Positions 14,458 to 37,654 of a stretch of DNA of 64,000 nt are shown in pieces. The stretch lies in NCBI RefSeq assembly GCF_002092855.1, contig NZ_LVLC01000001.1:434001-498000 (forward strand), in the 5' to 3' direction. Source of the stretch: Campylobacter concisus. Lineage in GTDB: Bacteria; Campylobacterota; Campylobacteria; Campylobacterales; Campylobacteraceae. A program made the translations under genes and the position numbers. How positions within the stretch are numbered: position 1 is the first letter of the stretch; the number at the start of each line of letters is the position of its first letter. Below the pieces are notes generated by a model. It saw nothing but the letters and a program-made list of their open reading frames with translations. It was not told the origin of the DNA and searched no databases.

Positions 14458-17400
14458 GTGAAAAGATCCATTTTAAATAAAAAATGTATTTTTATAAGTG
14501 CAGCTTGTTGTGCTCTTTTGTTTACAAATTCGCTAAAAGCCAACGATCAAGAAAGTGGTAAATTTGGCGACATAAGTAGCTGGCAGAGCGCTGAATATGA
14601 AGCATACTGGGGACTAAAGCGTATCAATGCAGCTATTGCGTATGCTCTTGGAGTGACAGGCAAAGGTGTGACGCTTGGCGTTATGGACTCTGGCGCATTA
14701 CTTAGCCACCCTGAACTTAGTGACGGTAGGATAAGCGCACTAAAAATTTCTGGTAGCTACTACAAAGACGGACAAAAATATCCAGATACTGAGCACGGCA
14801 ACTCTCCTTTTTTAAAAAAGGGAAGCACTGATAAAAATAGAGCTGACTTTGGCGACTTTAAAAAAGGTGATAAATTTGAAGCTGATGGCAACTGGATCGC
14901 TGGTGTAAACGACTCGCACGGCACGCACGTAGCTGGCACAATTGCTGGCTCAAGAGATGGTAAAGGGATGCATGGTGTAGCATTTGACTCAAAACTTATA
15001 GTAGGAAATACTGGCGGAACCGATGGTATGACATATGGACCAAACCAAGACTACAACTTCTTTTTAGCATCTTATGAGGGACTAGCTAAAGCTGGTGCAA
15101 GAGCTATAAATAATAGTTGGGGTTCAAACCGAAAATTTTATAAAGCTTATGAGGGAGCAATTGGATTTGATGGTGGCAATAGCTTAGATATAAAAGATCT
15201 TGACGCAGCCTATAAAAGCTACTATCCATTTGTCACAAATGGTAAAAATTTCTTAGATGCTGCTTATGAAGTCGCCAAAAAATACGGCATCATTCAAGTC
15301 TTCACTGCCGGAAATAGAAATGGCATGAAAGAGTCATACACAAGAGCAATGCTTCCATATTTTCGTCCAGATGCTGAAAAATACTGGATAAACGTTACTG
15401 GAATGACAGATGGCGATGCACAACATTTTAATACCGCAGGACACTCAAAATGGTGGAGTATCGCAGCACCTGGTAAAAGTATAAAATCAAGCACAGTTGA
15501 TCCTAAAAATGGAAACGCTGGTTATGATAGCTGGGATGGTACATCAATGGCAGCTCCACACGTCACTGGCGCACTTGGTCTTGTCATGCAAAGATATCCA
15601 TATATGAGCAACTCTCAAGCAAGAGATGTTTTACTAACTACCGCAAGACAAGTTAGAGATGAGTTTAAAAAGCCAGCCGATACAAGAAGAATTTCTGGCT
15701 TTACTGCGCCACTTGGCGTACCTGATGAGCGCTGGGGCTGGGGAGCACTTGATATGTCAAAGGCTATGTTTGGACCAGGACAGCTACTAGGCGTATTTGA
15801 TGTAAGTCTAGACACAGACGATCTTTACTCAAATAATATCAGTGATGTAGCCATAAAATACAGAAAGACTGAGGATGAAGCAGAGGCACAAATTTGGGCT
15901 AATCGCAAAGCCGAGCTTGAACAAATGTCAAATTTAACAGCCGAGCAAAGGGCTGAACTTGATATAGGCAACGCTAGAGAAAAAGCAAGAGAGCAAAGAG
16001 CTAGCGAAGGCTACGAAGGAACTCTTATTAAGAGAGGTCTAGGCACTCTAAAACTAGCAGGCACCAACTCATACACTGGCAAAACCATAATAAAAAGTGG
16101 CAAGATCACAGCACTAAATCAATCACTAAAATCAAGCGAAGTAGTAGTCGAAAATGGTGGTGCACTTGAGATTGTTAAAGAGATGAGTGTTAGAGAGATT
16201 GATAGAAATAAATTTTCTCAAAAGCTATCTTTTAAAGACGTAACTAGAAAAAGTACAAATGACGCAGTAAAAGCTACTATAAAAACAGGCGGTAGTTATA
16301 TCATCTCAAATAATGCAGCAAATTTAAATCTAAAATTTGAAAAGAACTCTATCATAGATATAAGCAAGCCAGATGTAGATATCATGAAAAGACTATATGA
16401 TGATAGCTCAAAAGCAAAAACTTACACCGTAACTGGAAATTTTAGTGGCTATAATGACACCATCTTAAGAAAATATGCATTTTTTGATCTTAGTAGAAAT
16501 TATAGTGACAACAAGCTAGAATTAACACTTAAAAAATCAAAAAACACGATAACAAGTATTGCAGCTAGCGATAACCAAAAAAGAGTAGCGCAACTCATAG
16601 AGAGTACAGCTAGCAGACCAGCACTCCTTGCTTCGCCGTTTAGAAGTAGACCAGCAGTCATCACGAGTGATCTATATAGACACTTCATCTACGCTACACC
16701 AAAAGAAGCAAGTGATACGCTAAAAACATTTGCAAATAATGCAAATTTAGCTCAACATAATGCATTTTTACTAGAAAACATCTTACTCAAAAATGCAATT
16801 ATCAACCATGAATTTGATCCATTCAGTGCAAAAGCAATCGATGCGAGTGGTATGAATTTTTGGTCAAATACCATGGCTAATGCTATGAAATTTGATGATG
16901 TAAAAGCAAACTCACTCACTCAGCTTTTTGGATTTGACGGTAGCATAAATGATGTTTTCACACTTGGTGGCGTGCTTGGTGCTAGCAGTGAAAAAGTAAA
17001 AGAAGATGGCGATGATGCTTATAAAACAAAAGGCACAAGTATAGGCATCTACGGAAAAAGCCAGATCGCTAGCACAAAACTAGACCTTGGTCTCATATAT
17101 ACAAATTCTAAACGAAAAACGCAAAATGGTGCTACGATCGTTAGTTTCTACTCAGATGAGCATGTAAAAAGCAAGGAAAAAGCACTTACTGCTTACGCAA
17201 ATTTGGCACTAACTAGCTTTAACAGTGCGAATTTCTCACTAAATCCTTATGTGGGCGCAAGCTATCTACGCATGAAAACTGATAGTACTAGCCAAAATGT
17301 AGGAATTTTCAGAATGGACGTTGATGAAAAAACTAGGAATTTAGGTGTATTTAGCATAGGTCTAAACCCTAGCGTACCATTTAGTCTTAGTAGTACAAAG

Positions 17401-17649
17401 ATGAAATTTGAAGCTGATCTAGCCTACAATAGACTAGTTGGCGATACAAGACCAAATATCGGCGTAAATATCGCAAATGCTGGATACTTAGAACTTGAAG
17501 GAAAAGAGGTACGCGATCTTGGCACAGCTAGCCTTGGTGTAAAGGCGAATGTTTATAAAAATATAAATTTAGGCCTATCTTACACAGGTGCTTTTGCTAA
17601 AGACGTGAAGTCAAACAGCGTAAATGCGAAATTTGAAATTTTGTTTTAA
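14458..17649 (+). CDS. Autotransporter subtilisin-like serine protease (S8)
   Basis: A 1063-residue type V secreted protease. GTG at 14458 is preceded by AAGGATGA. Residues 1-28 form the signal peptide. The S8 catalytic triad is intact: D77 (GVMDSGA), H154 (DSHGTHVAG) and S363 (DGTSMAAPHV). A passenger-associated strand repeat lies at about 521-550 (RGLGTLKLAGTNSYTGKT), a linker follows, and the last 260-odd residues form the outer-membrane autotransporter barrel ending in phenylalanine (FEILF). It is expected to be exported by Sec and displayed or released at the cell surface. It stands alone, convergent with ilvA, with a shared terminator. Substrate unknown. Confidence 0.93.
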   Translation: MKRSILNKKCIFISAACCALLFTNSLKANDQESGKFGDISSWQSAEYEAYWGLKRINAAIAYALGVTGKGVTLGVMDSGALLSHPELSDGRISALKISGSYYKDGQKYPDTEHGNSPFLKKGSTDKNRADFGDFKKGDKFEADGNWIAGVNDSHGTHVAGTIAGSRDGKGMHGVAFDSKLIVGNTGGTDGMTYGPNQDYNFFLASYEGLAKAGARAINNSWGSNRKFYKAYEGAIGFDGGNSLDIKDLDAAYKSYYPFVTNGKNFLDAAYEVAKKYGIIQVFTAGNRNGMKESYTRAMLPYFRPDAEKYWINVTGMTDGDAQHFNTAGHSKWWSIAAPGKSIKSSTVDPKNGNAGYDSWDGTSMAAPHVTGALGLVMQRYPYMSNSQARDVLLTTARQVRDEFKKPADTRRISGFTAPLGVPDERWGWGALDMSKAMFGPGQLLGVFDVSLDTDDLYSNNISDVAIKYRKTEDEAEAQIWANRKAELEQMSNLTAEQRAELDIGNAREKAREQRASEGYEGTLIKRGLGTLKLAGTNSYTGKTIIKSGKITALNQSLKSSEVVVENGGALEIVKEMSVREIDRNKFSQKLSFKDVTRKSTNDAVKATIKTGGSYIISNNAANLNLKFEKNSIIDISKPDVDIMKRLYDDSSKAKTYTVTGNFSGYNDTILRKYAFFDLSRNYSDNKLELTLKKSKNTITSIAASDNQKRVAQLIESTASRPALLASPFRSRPAVITSDLYRHFIYATPKEASDTLKTFANNANLAQHNAFLLENILLKNAIINHEFDPFSAKAIDASGMNFWSNTMANAMKFDDVKANSLTQLFGFDGSINDVFTLGGVLGASSEKVKEDGDDAYKTKGTSIGIYGKSQIASTKLDLGLIYTNSKRKTQNGATIVSFYSDEHVKSKEKALTAYANLALTSFNSANFSLNPYVGASYLRMKTDSTSQNVGIFRMDVDEKTRNLGVFSIGLNPSVPFSLSSTKMKFEADLAYNRLVGDTRPNIGVNIANAGYLELEGKEVRDLGTASLGVKANVYKNINLGLSYTGAFAKDVKSNSVNAKFEILF

Positions 17650-29499: not shown

Positions 29500-30147
29500 C
29501 TATTCAAACAGTTTTCTATACCATGCTACATCAGGTTTGATAAGATCTGAGTTTCTAAACGGCGACTCTTCTAGCTTTTGCTCGTAAATTTTGGCCGAAA
29601 CATCACGACCAGTCCTATTGTAAAGATCAGCTATTTGCATATCTAGGAAATAAAGTGCAAGTTTAAATTTAATAAGCATAGTCTCGATAAGTGGCTTATA
29701 TTCAGTATTTGGATACATATAAAGAAATTTCTCGATTTCTGTTACGCTATCTTCCATAAGCTTTTGGTTGCGGTTTGGCTGAGTAAATGAGTCAAAATTT
29801 GCTTTTATCTTTAGGTATTGAGCAAATTCTGTTTTTGGGCCGTTATCGCCGTATCTTTTGATGTACTCGTCAAGATAGTGATTTGCCATGAGATACTCTT
29901 CGTCATTTGCGTGAGCTTGGGCAAGGATAAGTAAAATTTGCTCCAAAAGTGGGCTTGCTACGTGTTCGCTTGCCATTGAGACATAGTGTTTATCGGCCGC
30001 TTCAAGATCACCATCTTTTATATCAGCGATAACCTGAGCATACCACTCATCAGGAGTTAGATTGTAAAGCTCGGTATATTTTTCAGCACAACCACTAAAA
30101 AGCCCTAAAAGAGCTACAACTGCTAGAAATTTAGAAAATCTTTTCAT
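29500..30147 (-). CDS. bamD: BamD, outer-membrane assembly lipoprotein
   Basis: A 215-residue lipoprotein of the Bam complex, which inserts beta-barrel proteins into the outer membrane. Signal and lipobox [10 protein letters not shown] give a lipid-modified Cys near residue 20. The body contains TPR-like helices ([40 protein letters not shown]) with the YMYPNTEY motif typical of BamD. Divergent from fliW. Confidence 0.88.
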
Positions 30148-30259: not shown

Positions 30260-30643
30260 ATGATTTTTAGCGTTAAAAGCCCTATTTTAGGCTTTGAGCA
30301 TATCAAGACGATGGAGTTAATTGAACTTGATAAATTTTTTGTTAAGCTAGCAAGCAAAGATGATGAGACATCTTTTACAATGATAAATCCTTTTGCATTA
30401 AGAAGCTACGAATTCGATATTCCAAGCTATTATGAAGATCTTATGGAGATTAAAGAAAGCTCTCAACTCAGAATTTATAACATTATCGTTGTTGCACTCC
30501 CGCTTGAAAAATCAACTGTAAATTTTATAGCTCCTATCGTTTGCAATATGGATAATATGACCTTATCTCAAGTCGTTTTAGACATTGCCAAATATCCTCA
30601 GTACGGGCAAGCTGAAATGATAGAAAATTTTATACAAAAATAG
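30260..30643 (+). CDS. fliW: FliW, flagellar assembly factor
   Basis: A 127-residue cytoplasmic protein. FliW binds flagellin and frees or blocks CsrA, thereby linking flagellin translation to assembly. Family features are [12 protein letters not shown] at the start and the [18 protein letters not shown] region. A possible -10 (TATGATAAAAT, about 30221) and ribosome site AGGAG precede ATG. In C. jejuni, as I recall, fliW is followed by proC and ctsT; here the pseudopilin cluster follows at once. Confidence 0.9.
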
Positions 30644-30704
30644 TAGCTAAAAGCTTTTAGAAAATCTAAGGAGAGATTTTTTATTGTTATTTAGAGGATT
30701 TGTT

Positions 30705-33700
30705 GTGAAGATAGTATACTTACTCTGTCTTATTGTCACGTTTGGTTTTTGTGCACCCAGAGCTTGTACGACAGCAGAAGCAGCATCTATTGGTTGTAGT
30801 GGAGCAAATTATTCTTGCTTTATAGACGCTGAAGAGTACCAAGACAACTCTTCTAAAAATATCCCACATTGCATAAGAAAATCTGATAGAACCTGGACGA
30901 TAGATACCAATAGCTTTTTTTCAGGCTTAGCACAAGATCACTATCATATTTACGTTGAGCAATTTTCTCCATGGAATAAACGATCATTAATAGGTATGTG
31001 GGATGATCACTCTAAAGGCTTAAGACAAAGATCAATAAATGGAAATCTAAATACCAGAGTAAATGGAGATATAGCTACCATTGGTGCTACTATTATGATT
31101 CCACAATACGCTGGATATAATTTTGTTCCAGATCCATCTAACGTAACAAGAACATCATCTACAGCCGATAGAATATTTTTAGATACTGGTAGTTTTACGT
31201 CTAGTAATTACACACTTTGTCAAACAACATATATTTATAATCCTAGCAAGCATCCTTATTGTAAAAATTCATCCTCTTCCACGTTTGATTTTAGTGAGAA
31301 AAATACCTTTATACAAAATAATTTAAAAGGTAAAAACGTAGTCTATGCCAGGCTTTATTGGGGTGGCTCTCTTTATCAAAACTGGGCAATAAAAAATCTT
31401 GGGTCAAATTTATATGTAAGTGCTTTAAATTACATAAAAGGATATAGCAGGATTGATTTTAAAGCTCCTGGAAAAAATGCAATCACAATAGATGCTGATC
31501 CAAAAGATGTCTTTTGGTTTGGTTCATTTAGTGAGTATAAACCAAAATCAATGACTCTTGAATCATACAATCAAAACGAGTCTAATAGCTACTATGTAAA
31601 GGCTGGAATAAACTACCAATATGTAGCAAGCGCTGATGTAACAGATATAGTTAGAGATTCTCTTGGCACTAGTGAGTCAGATAGGACATTTTATGCTGGC
31701 AATATCAGATCCACTACGATTCCCTTTAGTGATGAATTTATAGACCCAAATGATGGCACATATAAGGTAAACAACTCTACTAATAGAAAACTAAAAAAAA
31801 CATACGGCACGCTACTATTCTCACCAGTTCAAGGGCAAAATGGTTACTGGATACAATCCATTGCACCACAATTTGCAGCTTGGAGTTTGGTCATCATTTA
31901 TGACTTTGATGATAAAACCGCTGCAGCAAACAATATAGAGCCAAAGCTTGTTAGTATATTTGATGGACTAGAAAGGCTTGCAGCAGACTGGATGAAGTCA
32001 AGCGATCCATTTGGTACTGTAAAGAGCTCAACCATAGATGTAAAATTTGAAAATATCTACACACCAAAAGCAGGAAATATAGATGCTTCGCTCACAATGT
32101 TTTCATTTGGCGGCAAGCCAGAAACAAAGGGTGAAGATATTAAGATAAAAAAAGGTGGCAGCTATCAGAGTATCACCAGCGGATATAACGCGCAAGGCGA
32201 TCAGTTTAACTCAACTATGACAAAATTTGGACAACTTATAAATCCAGGTAAAAAATTTCACTCTCAAACAGACTTAGATATATTTGATATATCGGACAAA
32301 ATGTCATATGCTCAAAAAGAAGCGGATATAAAATTTACAGTTACAACGATTAAAAGCTCAGGCGGTGCTAATGTCGTAAGTGCTGACCGTATAAATTTAG
32401 CTCTAGTTGGCTTTTCTTCTCGTATATACAAACCAGATGTTTGCTATATGGAGTATATTTATGCAAAAAAACCTAGCGATAGTACTTTTACAAAGGTGCA
32501 AGAAAATACACCAACGGTAGTGCCAGCAAATACTATTTTAAAAACTTTCGTTGAAGTTACAAATAATACAAATGAAGCCGCCCAAGACTTTGCACTAAAA
32601 GCCACAATAGATCCAAGCCAAATTTATAATCCAAACTCAACTTACATATACGCAGATAAAGCATCGCAAGGGCCTAGTGATCTGCTTACTATGTCAGGAC
32701 AGGTACACTATAACGACAACACAGGCTTGCAGCAATTAAGCGGAAATGACTTAACTTTTTACTTAGGACAAGGTGCGGCTGCAAATAAGGGTGGAGAAAT
32801 GCTAATTCATCAAGGCAACTACGCTTATGCTATATATGAAACTACCCTTAAGTCTAAATTTGAGCCAAATAGTTACAAAGCCACAGTTGCTAATGCTGAT
32901 ATAAATTTACAGCCCTATGACACATATATAAGAAGATGTAGCAATCAAAATTACAACATTACTTTAGGTGTTAGTGCCAGTCCAAATAATTTCGTCGCAA
33001 GCAATAGACAAGACGATGGCTCAGCAGCTTTTAAAACTAAATTTAAAAATAGACTTCTAACTAAAATCGTTTCTACGCCATTTAATGTCTATATCACGAA
33101 CTATGATACAGATGGCAACAAAAAAGTACCAGATGCTCCAGTAGATGTAAAAGTAGAGTTGGTCGAGTCTTGCAGTGCTCCAACAAATTTATATGAACAA
33201 GATATAACATTTAATGGCGTAACTGATATTTTGTTATCAGGCATTAGTATTGACAGAGCCTATAAAAGCGTAAAATTTAGAATTTCTCATCTTGATCCAG
33301 TGACAAATACTACAAAGGTTGAATGTGAAAAATTAGATGATTTTACTATAAGACCAAGTCACTTTAGGCTATGGGATACTGACAAGAATACGATCAATAA
33401 TAACAATGTTTTAATAGGTGGCAAAGTTTATAATAACATTGCTCTTGCGGCTATGAAACCTCTTGATAGTGGCTTAGCAAATGGCTATATAAACAACATA
33501 AGTGGCTCAAATGGAGAGATAAAACTTGTACCAGCATATAGTGCGACTTGTGATCCTAGCATTATAGAGAGTGAGAACAAACTAAGCGTAGATTTTAACG
33601 ATCCAAATAAAGCATTGGGTAAAATTTTCCGTCACACATCGAGTGGACCTGTTGGCTTTTCTTACTCAGATATAGGCGATACATATTTTTATGTATTAGA

Positions 33701-34922
33701 CAAAGACTATACAATAACTGATCAACATACACCATCAAGAGCTGATGATTGTGTAAAAAACTCAATTAGCAACGATCCATCACAAGATACTGCTCAAGAA
33801 GGAAGGATCGGATGTAGTATAAAGCTAGAAGGTAATAGAGATTATCTATTTAGGCCAAAAGATATACAAATAAGCAAGTTAAAGATAACAAAAGATAGCG
33901 ATATAACATACCTTGATAATGAAGGCATACAAAAAGCAAAGCTTGACTTTGAAGTAACTGCTAGGTTGTTTAACGATGACCCTGCAAAACTTTATAATGA
34001 AGATTGCTATGCAAAAAATATGAACTTTGATATAAAACTAGATAGAGTTCCTTTAAATTTTACAGATAATGATGGCAATGCCGGTACATTAGCAAAAGCA
34101 AATGAAGAAATTTTATTTTTTGAAATTCCTGGCTCAAATACTAGAAAAGCAATAGATCCAAGTGCTACAAAATCAACATTTTATGTAGAGAAAAATACTT
34201 TTGTAAATGGCGTAGGTAAAGGTGAAGTATATTTTAATTTTGAAAGAAAAGTAAATCATGCCAAAAATCCTTTTACTATTTCAAGTAATGATTTTAGCTT
34301 TAGCGGCATGTCAGATAGCACCGATACAGTAAAAAAATATGAAAAACCAGCAACAGAAACGACAGCAAAATTTTACTTTGGTAGGGTTTATGCACCATTT
34401 TATGAAGGGCTTTATAGTGGCTTTTATGCCAAAATTTATTATGGTGCCTACTGCGATGGATGCAATAAAAATATCTATATGAAAGATAATGGCAAACTGT
34501 GGCAAGACTTTCCAGCTGCACCATTTTGGGCTACCAATCCAAAACATAACGCAGGAGTACTTAACTATCACGACTTTAGCTTTACAAACACTTACAGCGG
34601 CACTGTTTTAAGAAATGATGTAAGTAGTATAAGCAATGGCGAGCAGATAATTTTTATAAGAAACCCTTCAGCGGTTACTGATGTAGCTAAAATGAGAGCA
34701 CCTAGTTGGCTTCTTTATAGTGAATTTGATGAAAAAACTGAAACAAATAATTTCAATCTAAATTTTCTAGTACCAAATGGCGAATGGGCTGGTAAAGTCC
34801 TAAAGAGCAATAATATAGAGGATAAGACAAGCAGTGCAGTTGGAGGTTTTATAGGAGTAAAATCAAATAGTGATAATAACCTAGATATAAGCGATAAGAC
34901 AAACAGGAGAATAGAGTGGTAA
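30705..34922 (+). CDS. Very large exported MshQ-like (DUF6701-type) cysteine-containing protein
   Basis: About 1405 residues. I choose GTG at 30705 (GAGG upstream, then signal peptide KIVYLLCLIVTFGFCAP); TTG at 30684 with AAGGAG is the alternative. The N-terminal third is beta-rich, with KNVVYARLYWGGS (about 209), ASADVTDIVRDS and WSLVIIYDFDD (about 390), a pattern seen in adhesin-like surface proteins. A DUF11-like part (ILKTFVEVTNNTNEAAQD, about 605) follows. The C-terminal half has DAPVDVKVELVESC and KLDDFTIRPSHFRLW (about 880), as in MshQ of the Vibrio MSHA pilus locus. Many paired cysteines suggest disulfides. It overlaps the first pseudopilin by 7 bases. MshQ similarity is by eye. Confidence 0.72.
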   Translation: MKIVYLLCLIVTFGFCAPRACTTAEAASIGCSGANYSCFIDAEEYQDNSSKNIPHCIRKSDRTWTIDTNSFFSGLAQDHYHIYVEQFSPWNKRSLIGMWDDHSKGLRQRSINGNLNTRVNGDIATIGATIMIPQYAGYNFVPDPSNVTRTSSTADRIFLDTGSFTSSNYTLCQTTYIYNPSKHPYCKNSSSSTFDFSEKNTFIQNNLKGKNVVYARLYWGGSLYQNWAIKNLGSNLYVSALNYIKGYSRIDFKAPGKNAITIDADPKDVFWFGSFSEYKPKSMTLESYNQNESNSYYVKAGINYQYVASADVTDIVRDSLGTSESDRTFYAGNIRSTTIPFSDEFIDPNDGTYKVNNSTNRKLKKTYGTLLFSPVQGQNGYWIQSIAPQFAAWSLVIIYDFDDKTAAANNIEPKLVSIFDGLERLAADWMKSSDPFGTVKSSTIDVKFENIYTPKAGNIDASLTMFSFGGKPETKGEDIKIKKGGSYQSITSGYNAQGDQFNSTMTKFGQLINPGKKFHSQTDLDIFDISDKMSYAQKEADIKFTVTTIKSSGGANVVSADRINLALVGFSSRIYKPDVCYMEYIYAKKPSDSTFTKVQENTPTVVPANTILKTFVEVTNNTNEAAQDFALKATIDPSQIYNPNSTYIYADKASQGPSDLLTMSGQVHYNDNTGLQQLSGNDLTFYLGQGAAANKGGEMLIHQGNYAYAIYETTLKSKFEPNSYKATVANADINLQPYDTYIRRCSNQNYNITLGVSASPNNFVASNRQDDGSAAFKTKFKNRLLTKIVSTPFNVYITNYDTDGNKKVPDAPVDVKVELVESCSAPTNLYEQDITFNGVTDILLSGISIDRAYKSVKFRISHLDPVTNTTKVECEKLDDFTIRPSHFRLWDTDKNTINNNNVLIGGKVYNNIALAAMKPLDSGLANGYINNISGSNGEIKLVPAYSATCDPSIIESENKLSVDFNDPNKALGKIFRHTSSGPVGFSYSDIGDTYFYVLDKDYTITDQHTPSRADDCVKNSISNDPSQDTAQEGRIGCSIKLEGNRDYLFRPKDIQISKLKITKDSDITYLDNEGIQKAKLDFEVTARLFNDDPAKLYNEDCYAKNMNFDIKLDRVPLNFTDNDGNAGTLAKANEEILFFEIPGSNTRKAIDPSATKSTFYVEKNTFVNGVGKGEVYFNFERKVNHAKNPFTISSNDFSFSGMSDSTDTVKKYEKPATETTAKFYFGRVYAPFYEGLYSGFYAKIYYGAYCDGCNKNIYMKDNGKLWQDFPAAPFWATNPKHNAGVLNYHDFSFTNTYSGTVLRNDVSSISNGEQIIFIRNPSAVTDVAKMRAPSWLLYSEFDEKTETNNFNLNFLVPNGEWAGKVLKSNNIEDKTSSAVGGFIGVKSNSDNNLDISDKTNRRIEW

Positions 34923-35611
34923 AAAGAGGTGGCTTTTCATTGATAGAGCTTATCTTGTCAGTGCTTGTAGTAGCCATAGTAAGTGCAAGCCTGCCACTAG
35001 CGGTAAGAACTACTTCAAATTTAAGCGAGCAGTCCTTAATGCAAGAAGGACTAATGAATGCTAAAACCTATATGTCATTAATATTAAAAGCACCATTTAG
35101 CGATCAAGTATTAATAGCTGGCAAAAATACCATGCCATCATCTATAACCACTCAAGAGGCTATAATTTTTCCCCTTATTATCTGCGAGCAAGGGGCAAAT
35201 CCAGATTTTTATGAAAAAAGTGGAGTAAAAGGTGAAGGGCATAGGATACTTGCATATCCAGTGCAAAATTCATCTGCGTGTGCCACAAGGCCTATTGATT
35301 CAAAGCTTCCAGAATCAATCAAAAGCGTAAATTTTAAAGTAAAATCTATCAAAAATTTCAATACCCAAAAATCTATCTCACCAACTGCTAGCACTACTAA
35401 ACGCGACTTTATCATAGATACAGAAACGACTCCAACCATAACAAATGGAGCTGATAAATTTGTAGTTAGCACTCCTTTAAACGATAGTGACGTTTTACAG
35501 ATAAAGCTAGATACGACTATGAAAACTACGAAAGAGAGCAAAAGCGTACTTTATGGATATGCCTTTAACATAGGTGAAAGCAGCACTTTAAGTGTAAAAG
35601 AATGGAAATGA
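34916..35611 (+). CDS. Prepilin-like protein 1 (PilV/MshD-like)
   Basis: A 231-residue protein with a type IV prepilin leader: VKRG|GFSLIELILSVLVVAI, i.e. short basic leader, cleavage after Gly, Phe at +1/+2 region and conserved Glu5, then one hydrophobic helix. It should be processed by a prepilin peptidase and sit in the inner membrane or join a pseudopilus. GTG at 34916 has AGGAGA upstream and overlaps the stop of the MshQ-like gene. The globular part has two or three cysteines (ICEQ, CATRP). It overlaps the next gene by 10 bases. Confidence 0.82.
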   Translation: MVKRGGFSLIELILSVLVVAIVSASLPLAVRTTSNLSEQSLMQEGLMNAKTYMSLILKAPFSDQVLIAGKNTMPSSITTQEAIIFPLIICEQGANPDFYEKSGVKGEGHRILAYPVQNSSACATRPIDSKLPESIKSVNFKVKSIKNFNTQKSISPTASTTKRDFIIDTETTPTITNGADKFVVSTPLNDSDVLQIKLDTTMKTTKESKSVLYGYAFNIGESSTLSVKEWK

Positions 35612-36624
35612 AAAAAACAAAAAAAGCTTTTACGTTAATTGAGCTAATAATAGTCATCACCGTGCTTGGCGTTATCTCACTTATGAGCTTTAACACGCTT
35701 ATGAATTTATATCAAAACTATTTTCAAAGCAAAGTAATAAACGAACTAGAAACACAAAGCGAAATCGCTCTAGAGCAAATTTCAATGCTACTTAGCCACA
35801 GAATCAAACAAAGCGTTATCGCCAGGAAAAAAAATGGAGATTATCTAGCTCTAAATGATAGTGGCGTAAATTTAAGTAGTGACTTTGAAATTTTAGAATT
35901 TATCCCAGCTGCTTATGAGCTATTTAATGGCATAAACGAATATAAAGGAGATGATACTAACGGAGATCCTATCATCGAAGAAGGCATATATAGCGGATAT
36001 GTAGATCTTGCAAATAGCTCTGTTGCAAATGGATTAAAAAGCCCTGGAAGTAAATTTAATGATGCTTTTAGAAATGGCGTAATGGACTTGACCTGCGAAA
36101 ATGATAGCAATGAAGAAGATGTAAATAGCGGCTCTAGGTGTATAAACGCCGATAATGAAAATGGTGGTTTAGTAGCGATATTTTCTAGCATACTTTATAG
36201 AGTTGGTAGCAGCTTTGGCTATCAAGAAAATTTAGACCAAAGGCACTTAGATATCGCAAAAGTAGGCATACAATCAATCGATACGCTTAAAATTTCAAGT
36301 GATTTTAAAAATAAAAAAATTTCAGAACAGTATAAGCTAGCTTATACAGCCATTGCCATAGCGCCAGCTGAGCAAAGTGCCGAGGATATACAAAATGGCT
36401 CTTTTGACCTTAAAATTTACTACAACTATAGACCATGGCTAAATGAAAGCTTTAAAAAATTTAGCCCAACATCTACAAAGGATATCAAAGCCGAAAGTGC
36501 AACGCTAGCTAAACACGTAACAAGATTTGTCTTTACAGAAAAAAATGGTGTCATCGCGCTAAAGCTTTGCCTTAAAGCAGAAAAATCAGAAATAACCATT
36601 TGCAAGTCAAAGGCGGTTTATTAA
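35602..36624 (+). CDS. Prepilin-like protein 2 (PilW/MshO-like)
   Basis: 340 residues with leader KKTKKA|FTLIELIIVITVLGVISL, so a classic class III signal with Glu5 and an N-terminal helix. The cleavage residue is Ala rather than Gly, which some peptidases accept. The long globular domain, larger than that of a major pilin, fits a PilW/MshO-type minor pilin. A cysteine pair (LTCENDS...SRCINAD) and a C-terminal pair (LKLCLKA...ITICKS) could form disulfides. ATG at 35602 overlaps the preceding gene; an ATG two codons on is possible. Confidence 0.8.
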   Translation: MEMKKTKKAFTLIELIIVITVLGVISLMSFNTLMNLYQNYFQSKVINELETQSEIALEQISMLLSHRIKQSVIARKKNGDYLALNDSGVNLSSDFEILEFIPAAYELFNGINEYKGDDTNGDPIIEEGIYSGYVDLANSSVANGLKSPGSKFNDAFRNGVMDLTCENDSNEEDVNSGSRCINADNENGGLVAIFSSILYRVGSSFGYQENLDQRHLDIAKVGIQSIDTLKISSDFKNKKISEQYKLAYTAIAIAPAEQSAEDIQNGSFDLKIYYNYRPWLNESFKKFSPTSTKDIKAESATLAKHVTRFVFTEKNGVIALKLCLKAEKSEITICKSKAVY

Positions 36625-37046
36625 TGAGAAAAGGATTTACATTAATAGCGGCGATATTTTTTCTAGTTGTGGCAGCTTCTATCAGTACTCTTGCTCTTTC
36701 GATAGCTAGCACATCAGCTAGACAAAGTAGTGAAATTTATCTAAGAGAGCAAGCACAGCTCGTTGCTCAAGCAGCAGCAGAGTATGCGATGTTTGAAATT
36801 TTTAGAACTGATTTTTCAAATAAATGCTTAGATAAAGTAAATGGAGAATTTAACGATATGTTCGACTTTAAAGTAAAAATAACTTACTTTGGCGATATCG
36901 GTATATGCACTCCACCGACCATCATGCCAGGAACAAACGGAGTCGCAAGTACTGGCAACATGATCTTTGATGTTTTTGTAACATCAAAAGATAAAAAAAC
37001 GCCAAATCCTATAAATTTTCACAAACGAACTCTTCAGAAACTTTAA
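36624..37046 (+). CDS. Prepilin-like protein 3 (PilX/MshP/GspK-like, no Glu5)
   Basis: 140 residues from ATG at 36624, whose first base is the last of the previous stop (TAATG). The leader MRKG|FTLIAAIFFLVVAASI is prepilin-like but has Ala in place of Glu5, as in GspK and MshP-type proteins, which usually sit at the tip of the fibre. The rest is short with two cysteine pairs (FSNKCLDK, GICTPP). The open frame extends upstream to 36600, but the leader fits the later start. It ends the cluster, 80 bases before hpf. Confidence 0.78.
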   Translation: MRKGFTLIAAIFFLVVAASISTLALSIASTSARQSSEIYLREQAQLVAQAAAEYAMFEIFRTDFSNKCLDKVNGEFNDMFDFKVKITYFGDIGICTPPTIMPGTNGVASTGNMIFDVFVTSKDKKTPNPINFHKRTLQKL

Positions 37047-37126: not shown

Positions 37127-37654
37127 ATGAACATAAGCATTGTAGGAAAACAATTTGAGCTAACAGAGCCAATCAAAAACTATATCCAAGACGCTTTTGA
37201 TACGCTTGGCAAATACAATCTCGACATCATCTCAGCAAGATGTGTTGTAGCAGCCGATGAAAAACAAGGAAAAAAAGGCTTTAATGCAGAATTTTCTCTA
37301 AATATGGCCCATAAAGACACCATAGTCGTTCGCCAAAAAGATAAAGATCTTTACGCTGCGATCGATCTTGCCATCGAAAAAGCATCAAAAGTTTTAAGAA
37401 GAGAGCATGATAAGAAATTTACTGTTAAAGGCAAGGCTGACGATAAAGAATTTCGCTCAAGAATAGGCGAAGAAAAGATCGAAGGTGTCGAGGAGATCGT
37501 GCCTATGGAGCTTGAAATTTATAAACCACTTGAAGTCGAAGAAGCACTTGAGAAACTAAAATCAAGTGATAAACAATTTTACGTATTTAACGATGTTGAC
37601 GCAAAAATGCGTGTGATCTACAAAAGAACAGACGGAACTTTTGGTCTATACTAA
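37127..37654 (+). CDS. hpf: Hpf, long-form ribosome hibernation promoting factor
   Basis: 175 residues. The N-terminal RaiA/YfiA domain (about 1-100, starting MNISIVGKQFELTEPIKNYI) binds the small subunit and silences ribosomes. The C-terminal part (MELEIYKPLEVEEALEKLKS ... VIYKRTDGTFGLY) is the dimerisation domain of the long form, which makes 100S ribosomes. AAGGAG stands before ATG. It has its own promoter and terminator and so is probably monocistronic. Confidence 0.93.
   Translation: MNISIVGKQFELTEPIKNYIQDAFDTLGKYNLDIISARCVVAADEKQGKKGFNAEFSLNMAHKDTIVVRQKDKDLYAAIDLAIEKASKVLRREHDKKFTVKGKADDKEFRSRIGEEKIEGVEEIVPMELEIYKPLEVEEALEKLKSSDKQFYVFNDVDAKMRVIYKRTDGTFGLY

Follow-up and report, generated by a model that had tools for sequence, protein, structure and literature searches.

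The window analysed here is a stretch of 64,000 nucleotides from a genome of Campylobacter concisus (contig NZ_LVLC01000001.1, positions 434,001 to 498,000). On the forward strand, positions 30705-37046 hold four genes that overlap by 7, 10 and 1 bases. The first encodes a giant protein resembling MshQ/DUF6701 (here called Q), and the other three encode the minor prepilins V, W and X, candidates for the tip of a type IV pilus. The original prediction had described an exported protein of about 1405 residues followed by three prepilins, and all four genes were indeed present and open. For the giant, an alternative TTG start at 30684 would give a protein of 1412 residues. A scan for consensus promoters and terminators gave results no better than those obtained with shuffled sequence.

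The prepilin motif of W scored 28.1 bits with PF07963 (cut-off 21.2). V fell slightly below that cut-off (21.1 bits) and exceeded that of the NCBIfam model TIGR02532 (18.9 versus 16.3 bits). X gave no Pfam match; its N terminus, RKG/FTLIAA, has Ala as the fifth mature residue. Glu5 was absent from all 16 aligned X proteins, that of the window included, which bears out the claim that the last prepilin lacks this residue. Two features of a tip minor-pilin complex are present: three adjacent subunits with a prepilin motif (W by Pfam, V by NCBIfam, X by reading and alignment), and a cap subunit without Glu5, namely X. Weak NCBIfam matches linked W to GspJ and X to GspK (E 0.0067 for X, far below the cut-off), and none of the three proteins reached a GspI, GspJ or GspK cut-off.

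As a single query, the giant returned nothing usable from Pfam, NCBIfam or the PDB, and no PilY1-type family of Pfam or NCBIfam matched it; Pfam gave nothing usable for seven homologues either. PF20419 (DUF6701) did not match the window giant up to an E-value of 1, any of seven homologues, or any protein of the window's genome (G000; below, G, L and C denote genomes, loci and contigs). Among 397 Campylobacterota genomes, this model gave matches in 33 and passed its cut-off in 28, none of them in the window's family. The hmmscan searches with PF20419 also missed L078, L080, L084 and L087, though their genomes pass there in the genome search; the negative for the window giant is therefore weak. 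Profile-profile comparison of 23 Campylobacter giants (alignment A1) with six giants (A2) gave a probability of 100 and an E-value of 3.6e-81 over 1032 columns. The A2 giants came from other families (L074, L080, L081, L086 and L087) and from the window's own family (L105). All six precede V-W-X. The genome search puts the first five over the PF20419 cut-off; when five of the six were scanned with hmmscan, PF20419 came back for L074 and L081 and not for L080, L087 or L105. By this comparison the giant is homologous to proteins that pass PF20419, and is therefore a divergent member of the superfamily that Pfam's own model does not recognise. The resemblance to MshQ/DUF6701 that had been claimed was thus upheld by profile-profile comparison only, single-sequence searches being negative, and we dropped the absence of single-sequence matches as proof of the giant's novelty. 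We take DUF6701 to be the MshQ family. Among the 120 of 161 homologue matches listed, none was named MshQ, and those named by organism were from Campylobacterota, except one labelled Bacteroidia.

The predicted architecture comprises a compact N-terminal unit, an Ig-like array, a linker and a conserved tail (Table 1). In the giant model, the last 47 residues (model residues 790-836) had a predicted local distance difference test score (pLDDT) below 50. Fold searches matched only common arrangements, Ig-like and jelly-roll, and we claim no ligand from them; families outside the lists returned are not thereby excluded. Profile searches of the PDB with the C-terminal part of the giant and with X found nothing. 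Relatives of the giant carry lectin, PA14 and LamG modules, and whole N-terminal binding modules vary among them.

Table 1. Features of the giant-prepilin locus and its flanks (positions in the window)
Feature	Position	Strand	Remarks
BamD-like lipoprotein gene, upstream flank	29500..30147	-	Name by eye; 97-100% amino acid identity in 11 concisus-group loci
fliW, upstream flank	30260..30643	+	PF02623, E 2e-25; 96-100% amino acid identity in 11 loci
Giant MshQ/DUF6701-like protein (Q), 1405 residues	30705..34922	+	GTG start; exported, with a signal peptide by eye; predicted adhesin of the pilus tip
Giant, N-terminal part, residues 20-575	30762..32429	+	Compact and beta-rich, a single unit; weak fold match suggests a jelly-roll sub-domain
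Giant, C-terminal part, residues 570-1358	32412..34778	+	String of Ig-like beta-sandwiches; contains the DUF6701-like region
Giant, linker, residues 1359-1398	34779..34898	+	Predicted disordered
Giant, tail TNRRIEW, residues 1399-1405	34899..34919	+	Conserved end after the predicted disordered linker
V, PilV/MshD-like minor prepilin	34916..35611	+	Prepilin motif; Glu5 present; 231 residues
W, PilW/MshO-like minor prepilin	35602..36624	+	Prepilin motif; Glu5 present
X, PilX/MshP/GspK-like minor prepilin	36624..37046	+	ATG start; without Glu5; motif by reading and alignment only
hpf (ribosome hibernation factor), downstream flank	37127..37654	+	PF02482, E 2.3e-18; 97-100% amino acid identity in 11 loci

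The genome of the window (1.84 Mb, 99.95% complete) encodes the remaining parts of a pilus machine. Contig C1 carries at 161-171 kb, in this order, genes for proteins of 506, 215, 143, 510, 275, 292, 179, 583 and 412 residues. The 510-residue protein is a secretin of the MshL type (TIGR02519, 286.3 bits versus a cut-off of 250.2). Directly after it, in the MshM position, comes the 275-residue AAA_22 protein, and the 292-residue protein is TPR-like. The 583-residue protein, with T2SSE and MshEN domains, is a GspE/MshE-like extension ATPase, and the 412-residue protein (T2SSF) is a GspF/MshG-like platform protein; the search returned no MshE- or MshG-specific model for these two, and their position in the run fits. 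The 506-residue protein gave a weak PilN match and the 215-residue protein weak PilO and T2SSM matches, all below cut-off. The order of the run is presumably that of mshI-J-K-L-M-N-E-G. The extension ATPase at L009 7888-9639 (+) has kept its MshEN domain (PF05157, E 3.8e-12), a type that binds cyclic diguanylate in Vibrio.

PilT, the mark of a retractable type IVa pilus, is encoded on C12 (TIGR01420, 448.2 bits versus a cut-off of 319.1), and a prepilin peptidase on C31 (Peptidase_A24, over cut-off). The prepilin peptidase and assembly ATPase that the original prediction had asked for are both accordingly in the genome, and PilT too. Five proteins have the N_methyl motif, V and W among them; the three further prepilins are on C23, C12 and C31. 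The 145-residue prepilin on C23 matched the solved MshA structure as the fifth of 18 matches (E 1.7e-5). A separate GspG-like pilin scored below that model's cut-off. On C31, a gene for a 138-residue prepilin (L013, 6403-6819, minus strand) has a priA-like gene (name by eye) as its immediate neighbour. The machine genes are spread over C1 (two places), C12, C23 and C31, and do not show the usual, though not obligatory, single-locus layout of mannose-sensitive haemagglutinin (MSH) systems.

MSH systems, almost exclusively in a single locus, have been published for Epsilon-proteobacteria (PMC6668835), and MshL, MshM and PilT have been named in C. ureolyticus (PMC3758288). This type of system is therefore not new in the group, contrary to the earlier premise that Campylobacter is not known for type IV pili, and it is the scattered layout that differs.

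From these data we conclude, with a probability of about 0.7, that the locus is the tip module, a giant MshQ-like adhesin on V-W-X, of a retractable pilus of the MSH haemagglutinin (MSHA) type. In a model of type IV filaments, the minor-pilin tip complex is capped by a subunit without Glu5, and type IVa pili of diderm bacteria are capped by PilC/PilY1 (PMC10191384). MshQ is a putative adhesin, and loss of mshQ lowers surface MSHA (PMC7096442). In the mechanism that we propose, V, W and X would prime the filament, and X would stand at the top of its tip, where we place it because it lacks Glu5. The giant would pass the secretin and sit on V-W-X with its Ig-like stalk pointing outward, and PilT would pull attached cells in by retraction.

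We compared proteins of the window's genome with those of related genomes. FliW, Lon, BamD and Hpf were at least 96% identical to those of the C. concisus genomes G022, G024, G037 and G041, and the giant was 97-99% identical over its full length to giants of 16 genomes of the same genus. By these identities the genome belongs to the C. concisus group. The window and 10 other concisus-group loci (11 in all, partly chosen for divergence) were compared. In amino acid sequence, the flanking proteins Lon, BamD, FliW and Hpf were 96-100% identical. Q was 37-99% identical (median 42), V 42-99%, W 60-98% and X 59-99%. The comparison of Q covered 13 giants, two of the 11 loci having tandem pairs; in G031 and G043, two different giants stand in tandem.

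Seven divergent concisus loci, L095 and L096 not among them, were compared with the window at the nucleotide level. In each, an upstream match of 89-93% stopped between 30640 and 30907, that is, from the end of fliW to 264 bases beyond it. In L090, L091, L093, L094 and L097 the match was back at 91-92% from 36969-37003, with at most patches of approximately 70-84% in between. L089 and L092 gave weaker matches (83-84%) from approximately 35532 and 36494, respectively, through X into hpf, and L089 kept 74% matches across most of Q. Because the nucleotide matches stop and resume at these places, we take the divergent block to begin where fliW ends and to stop close to the end of X. In the eight loci L090-L097, V (80-97%) and X (84-98%) are alike and the giants fall into types that are only about 40% identical; the head therefore appears to change more often than its mount.

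The giant allele type of the window (94-100% identity) occurs in 18 genomes, the window's own included. Within this type, the ratio of nonsynonymous to synonymous polymorphism (pN/pS) was 0.08 for Q, 0.02 for fliW and 0.03 for V, as calculated for 15 of 17 loci (two of different length were left out). Q is therefore a working gene under purifying selection, and the same value rules out that it is a pseudogene. We read the variation of the block as exchange of whole alleles, with breakpoints taken from the nucleotide matches. Since the four predicted tip proteins diverge strongly between some strains and their neighbours are near-identical, the pilus tip is probably swapped, which would alter the adhesion target of the cell.

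The tip might also be exchanged for another reason: its role would be the same, and the variation would be driven by escape from tip-binding phages or antibodies rather than by a change of target. Divergence confined to the predicted tip genes would suit such escape, as would strong purifying selection within one allele type, as if whole alleles were swapped. In relatives of the giant, however, N-terminal binding modules vary as wholes, in keeping with a change of target, and we regard escape as rather unlikely to be the driving force. In the mechanism proposed above, exchange of the block would alter binding specificity or antigenicity.

The same gene set was found in other Campylobacterota. 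We read out 14 DUF6701 loci from other genomes. In six of them (L074, L080, L081, L083, L086 and L087) a giant is followed by V-W-X beside at least part of the lon/bamD/fliW/hpf flanks. In L077, L078 and L084, giant and pilins have additional pilus genes, a secretin gene and an AAA gene as their neighbours, and in the remaining five (L075, L076, L079, L082 and L085) the giants have no adjacent pilins. L076 (G181) has three DUF6701-type giants in a row. The order lon-bamD-fliW-giant-V-W-X-hpf, or part of it, also occurs in named Sulfurospirillum and Campylobacter loci (scan with fliW, best 80 of 137 loci). In genus g3, giants of approximately 1900-2350 residues are placed after X (L258, L260 and L261) or after hpf (L107), not before V. 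Two giant genes are interrupted: that of L223 (G066, g3), for a protein of 2085 residues, by a stop shortly before the C-terminal end, and that of L031 (G023, a single-contig genome) by a frameshift, W being frameshifted as well, which may reflect phase variation or an error in sequencing.

Profile A7 detected the giant in 89 of 153 Campylobacteraceae genomes (57 by single-sequence search); because of this recurrence, the four-gene locus is not due to chance. The counts per genus were 47/48 (g1), 12/16 (g2), 13/14 (g3), 0/49 (g4), 0/4 (g5), 2/2 (g6), 0/1 (g7), 1/1 (g8), 10/14 (g9), 1/1 (g10), 2/2 (g11) and 1/1 (g12). PilT was over cut-off in 103 of the 153 genomes. The giant was found in 89 of these 103 genomes, leaving 14 without a detected giant, and in none of the 50 genomes without PilT. 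Judged by E-value, these 50 are all 49 genomes of g4 plus G058 of g1, and the link between PilT and the giant therefore amounts to at least two losses, not to 50 independent cases. MshL was matched in 148 genomes and was over cut-off in 141.

Genus g4 is probably the C. jejuni group; we presume so from the start of the g4 FliW protein and from the C. jejuni ctsT gene (cj1077), listed with 100 residues and preceded in locus number by proC (cj1076) (PMC8308473). The two g4 loci that were read (L218 and L219, from 2 of the 49 genomes) have fliW, then proC in L218, and then genes for proteins of 97/101, 239/245 and 147/149 residues, without a giant. We took these proteins as V, W and X from their place and from weak profile scores (17-46 bits). 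In G058 the reduction is similar, with proteins of 132, 256 and 137 residues. Two of the original suggestions, a cluster drawing on Cts-type parts encoded elsewhere and a ctsT close to fliW, agree with the g4 loci and with PMC8308473.

Cts parts are required for transformation of C. jejuni (PMC10046745, PMC8308473), and the whole machine might likewise serve natural transformation, with the giant catching DNA or its carriers. The chromosomal site is probably that of ctsT, after fliW; V-W-X-type pilins persist in the two g4 genomes. Moreover, the 138-residue prepilin gene beside the priA-like gene sits where the gene for the competence protein Cj0683 sits beside priA in C. jejuni, a protein called unique to Campylobacter (PMC10046745). 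MshL, matched in nearly the whole family (148 of 153 genomes), is a further likeness to Cts. In contrast to the C. concisus locus, g4 has neither a giant nor PilT over cut-off, and its V-position protein has 97-101 residues against 231 in the window. Genus g4, taken as naturally transformable, lacks a detected giant in all 49 genomes, and a giant would therefore not be needed for uptake; also, the lectin, PA14 and LamG modules of its relatives suggest surfaces and glycans. We consider a DNA-uptake tip improbable. We infer instead that g4 lost the giant and PilT and kept shorter V- and W-like pilins (two genomes), so that Cts would be a stripped-down machine for DNA uptake.

The giant ends in a conserved tail. 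A terminal Trp was present in 86 of 90 giants of one homologue set, and in 93 giants among the 120 of 161 homologue matches listed. The 97 non-redundant tails ended in Trp (78), Arg (16) or otherwise (3). Among the 78 Trp tails, 69 have R at position -4 and 68 have R or K at -5, and most read [R/K]-R-x-x-W. Since V starts within the end of the giant gene, the Trp might have been a by-product of this overlap. This was ruled out by giants that do not precede V: seven of eight giants without a following V kept the Trp (L104, L107, L075, two in L076, L082 and L085; the exception is L079). In 13 further loci, all 12 giants found ended in Trp (none was found in L255), and six of these are giants of g2 whose stretches hold no pilin gene. 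The first giant of both tandem pairs and the unlinked g2 giants keep it as well.

Next, we related the tails to the W minor pilin. Among 57 loci that hold both a giant and a W gene, each with a distinct W protein, 49 tails were of the Trp class, six of the xFR class and two of the APxR class. On the W-pilin tree, the three classes required two changes, the minimum, and none of 200 shuffles gave a value as low, though related rows ease such clustering. Tail classes and clades of W, three of each, correspond. The xFR class spans four families. G400 combines two classes, xFR in L084 and APxR in L233, and both loci include a separate V-W-X set. We also searched the window's genome for the codon pattern R/S-R/S-hydrophobic-x-W-stop, allowing R or S (not K) in the two leading codons and either TAA or TGA (not TAG) as stop. 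It occurs in two places: in Q and outside any open reading frame. These observations suggest that the tail may be a docking plug, in which [R/K]-R-x-x-W on a flexible linker would seat the giant on the pilin complex.

A type II-like secretion system, in which a V-W-X pseudopilus would expel the giant as a soluble product with its tail as export signal, would fit the weak GspJ and GspK matches and a tail pattern that matched no other open frame, but it is more improbable still, given that PilT and the separate GspG-like pilin are present and that tail class tracks minor-pilin clade, as expected of a docking part.

The locus shares features with several known systems. In Vibrio cholerae, two operons encode MSHA: the assembly operon mshI-F and the structural operon mshB-Q (PMC4624765). 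The window's genome resembles it in the C1 run with an MshL-class secretin, in adjacent minor pilins with one giant and in a separate PilT, a likeness drawn from gene order and family models. Unlike in V. cholerae, the genes here lie on several contigs, and the giant comes first (Q-V-W-X) instead of last (D-O-P-Q). PilY1/PilC with PilV-PilW-PilX likewise combines a large non-pilin protein with minor pilins and a cap without Glu5, and the role of tip adhesin is suggested by this analogy (PMC10191384); the window giant differs in its Ig-like array and C-terminal Trp tail, and has no PilY1-type match. The GspI-GspJ-GspK tip of type II secretion systems also couples three pseudopilins and ends in one that lacks Glu5, whereas the present locus reaches no GspI/J/K cut-off and its genome has PilT and the giant.

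Outside the locus, lon lies further upstream of the BamD-like gene, both on the opposite strand (names by eye). At 14458-17649 (+), the window encodes what by eye is a subtilisin-like protease with an autotransporter-type C terminus.

The original prediction was right about the locus, its reading of it was supported, and it missed the divergent cassette, the conserved tail and the link to PilT. These three, that is, a bounded divergent block of four genes, the association of giant and PilT, and a conserved tail with pilin-matched classes, look new. In a literature search that left subscription journals mostly outside, cassette, tail and PilT link were absent from the titles and abstract openings of the matches listed. 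Tentatively, and with somewhat less than even confidence, we suggest that MshQ-family adhesins are interchangeable cartridges. Each tail class ([R/K]-R-x-x-W-COOH, xFR or APxR) would plug into matching minor pilins, and any head with the right plug could be mounted. C. concisus would swap tips, and the C. jejuni lineage would have dropped head and motor and kept the shaft for DNA uptake.

If this interpretation is correct, C. concisus, which lives in the human mouth and gut, would have a pilus that is adhesive and retractable and whose head can be exchanged. The Cts machine of C. jejuni would be an MSHA-type pilus minus its tip adhesin and retraction motor. Finally, the tail would provide a docking peptide, short and open to testing, for pilus-tip proteins of a class that has received little study.

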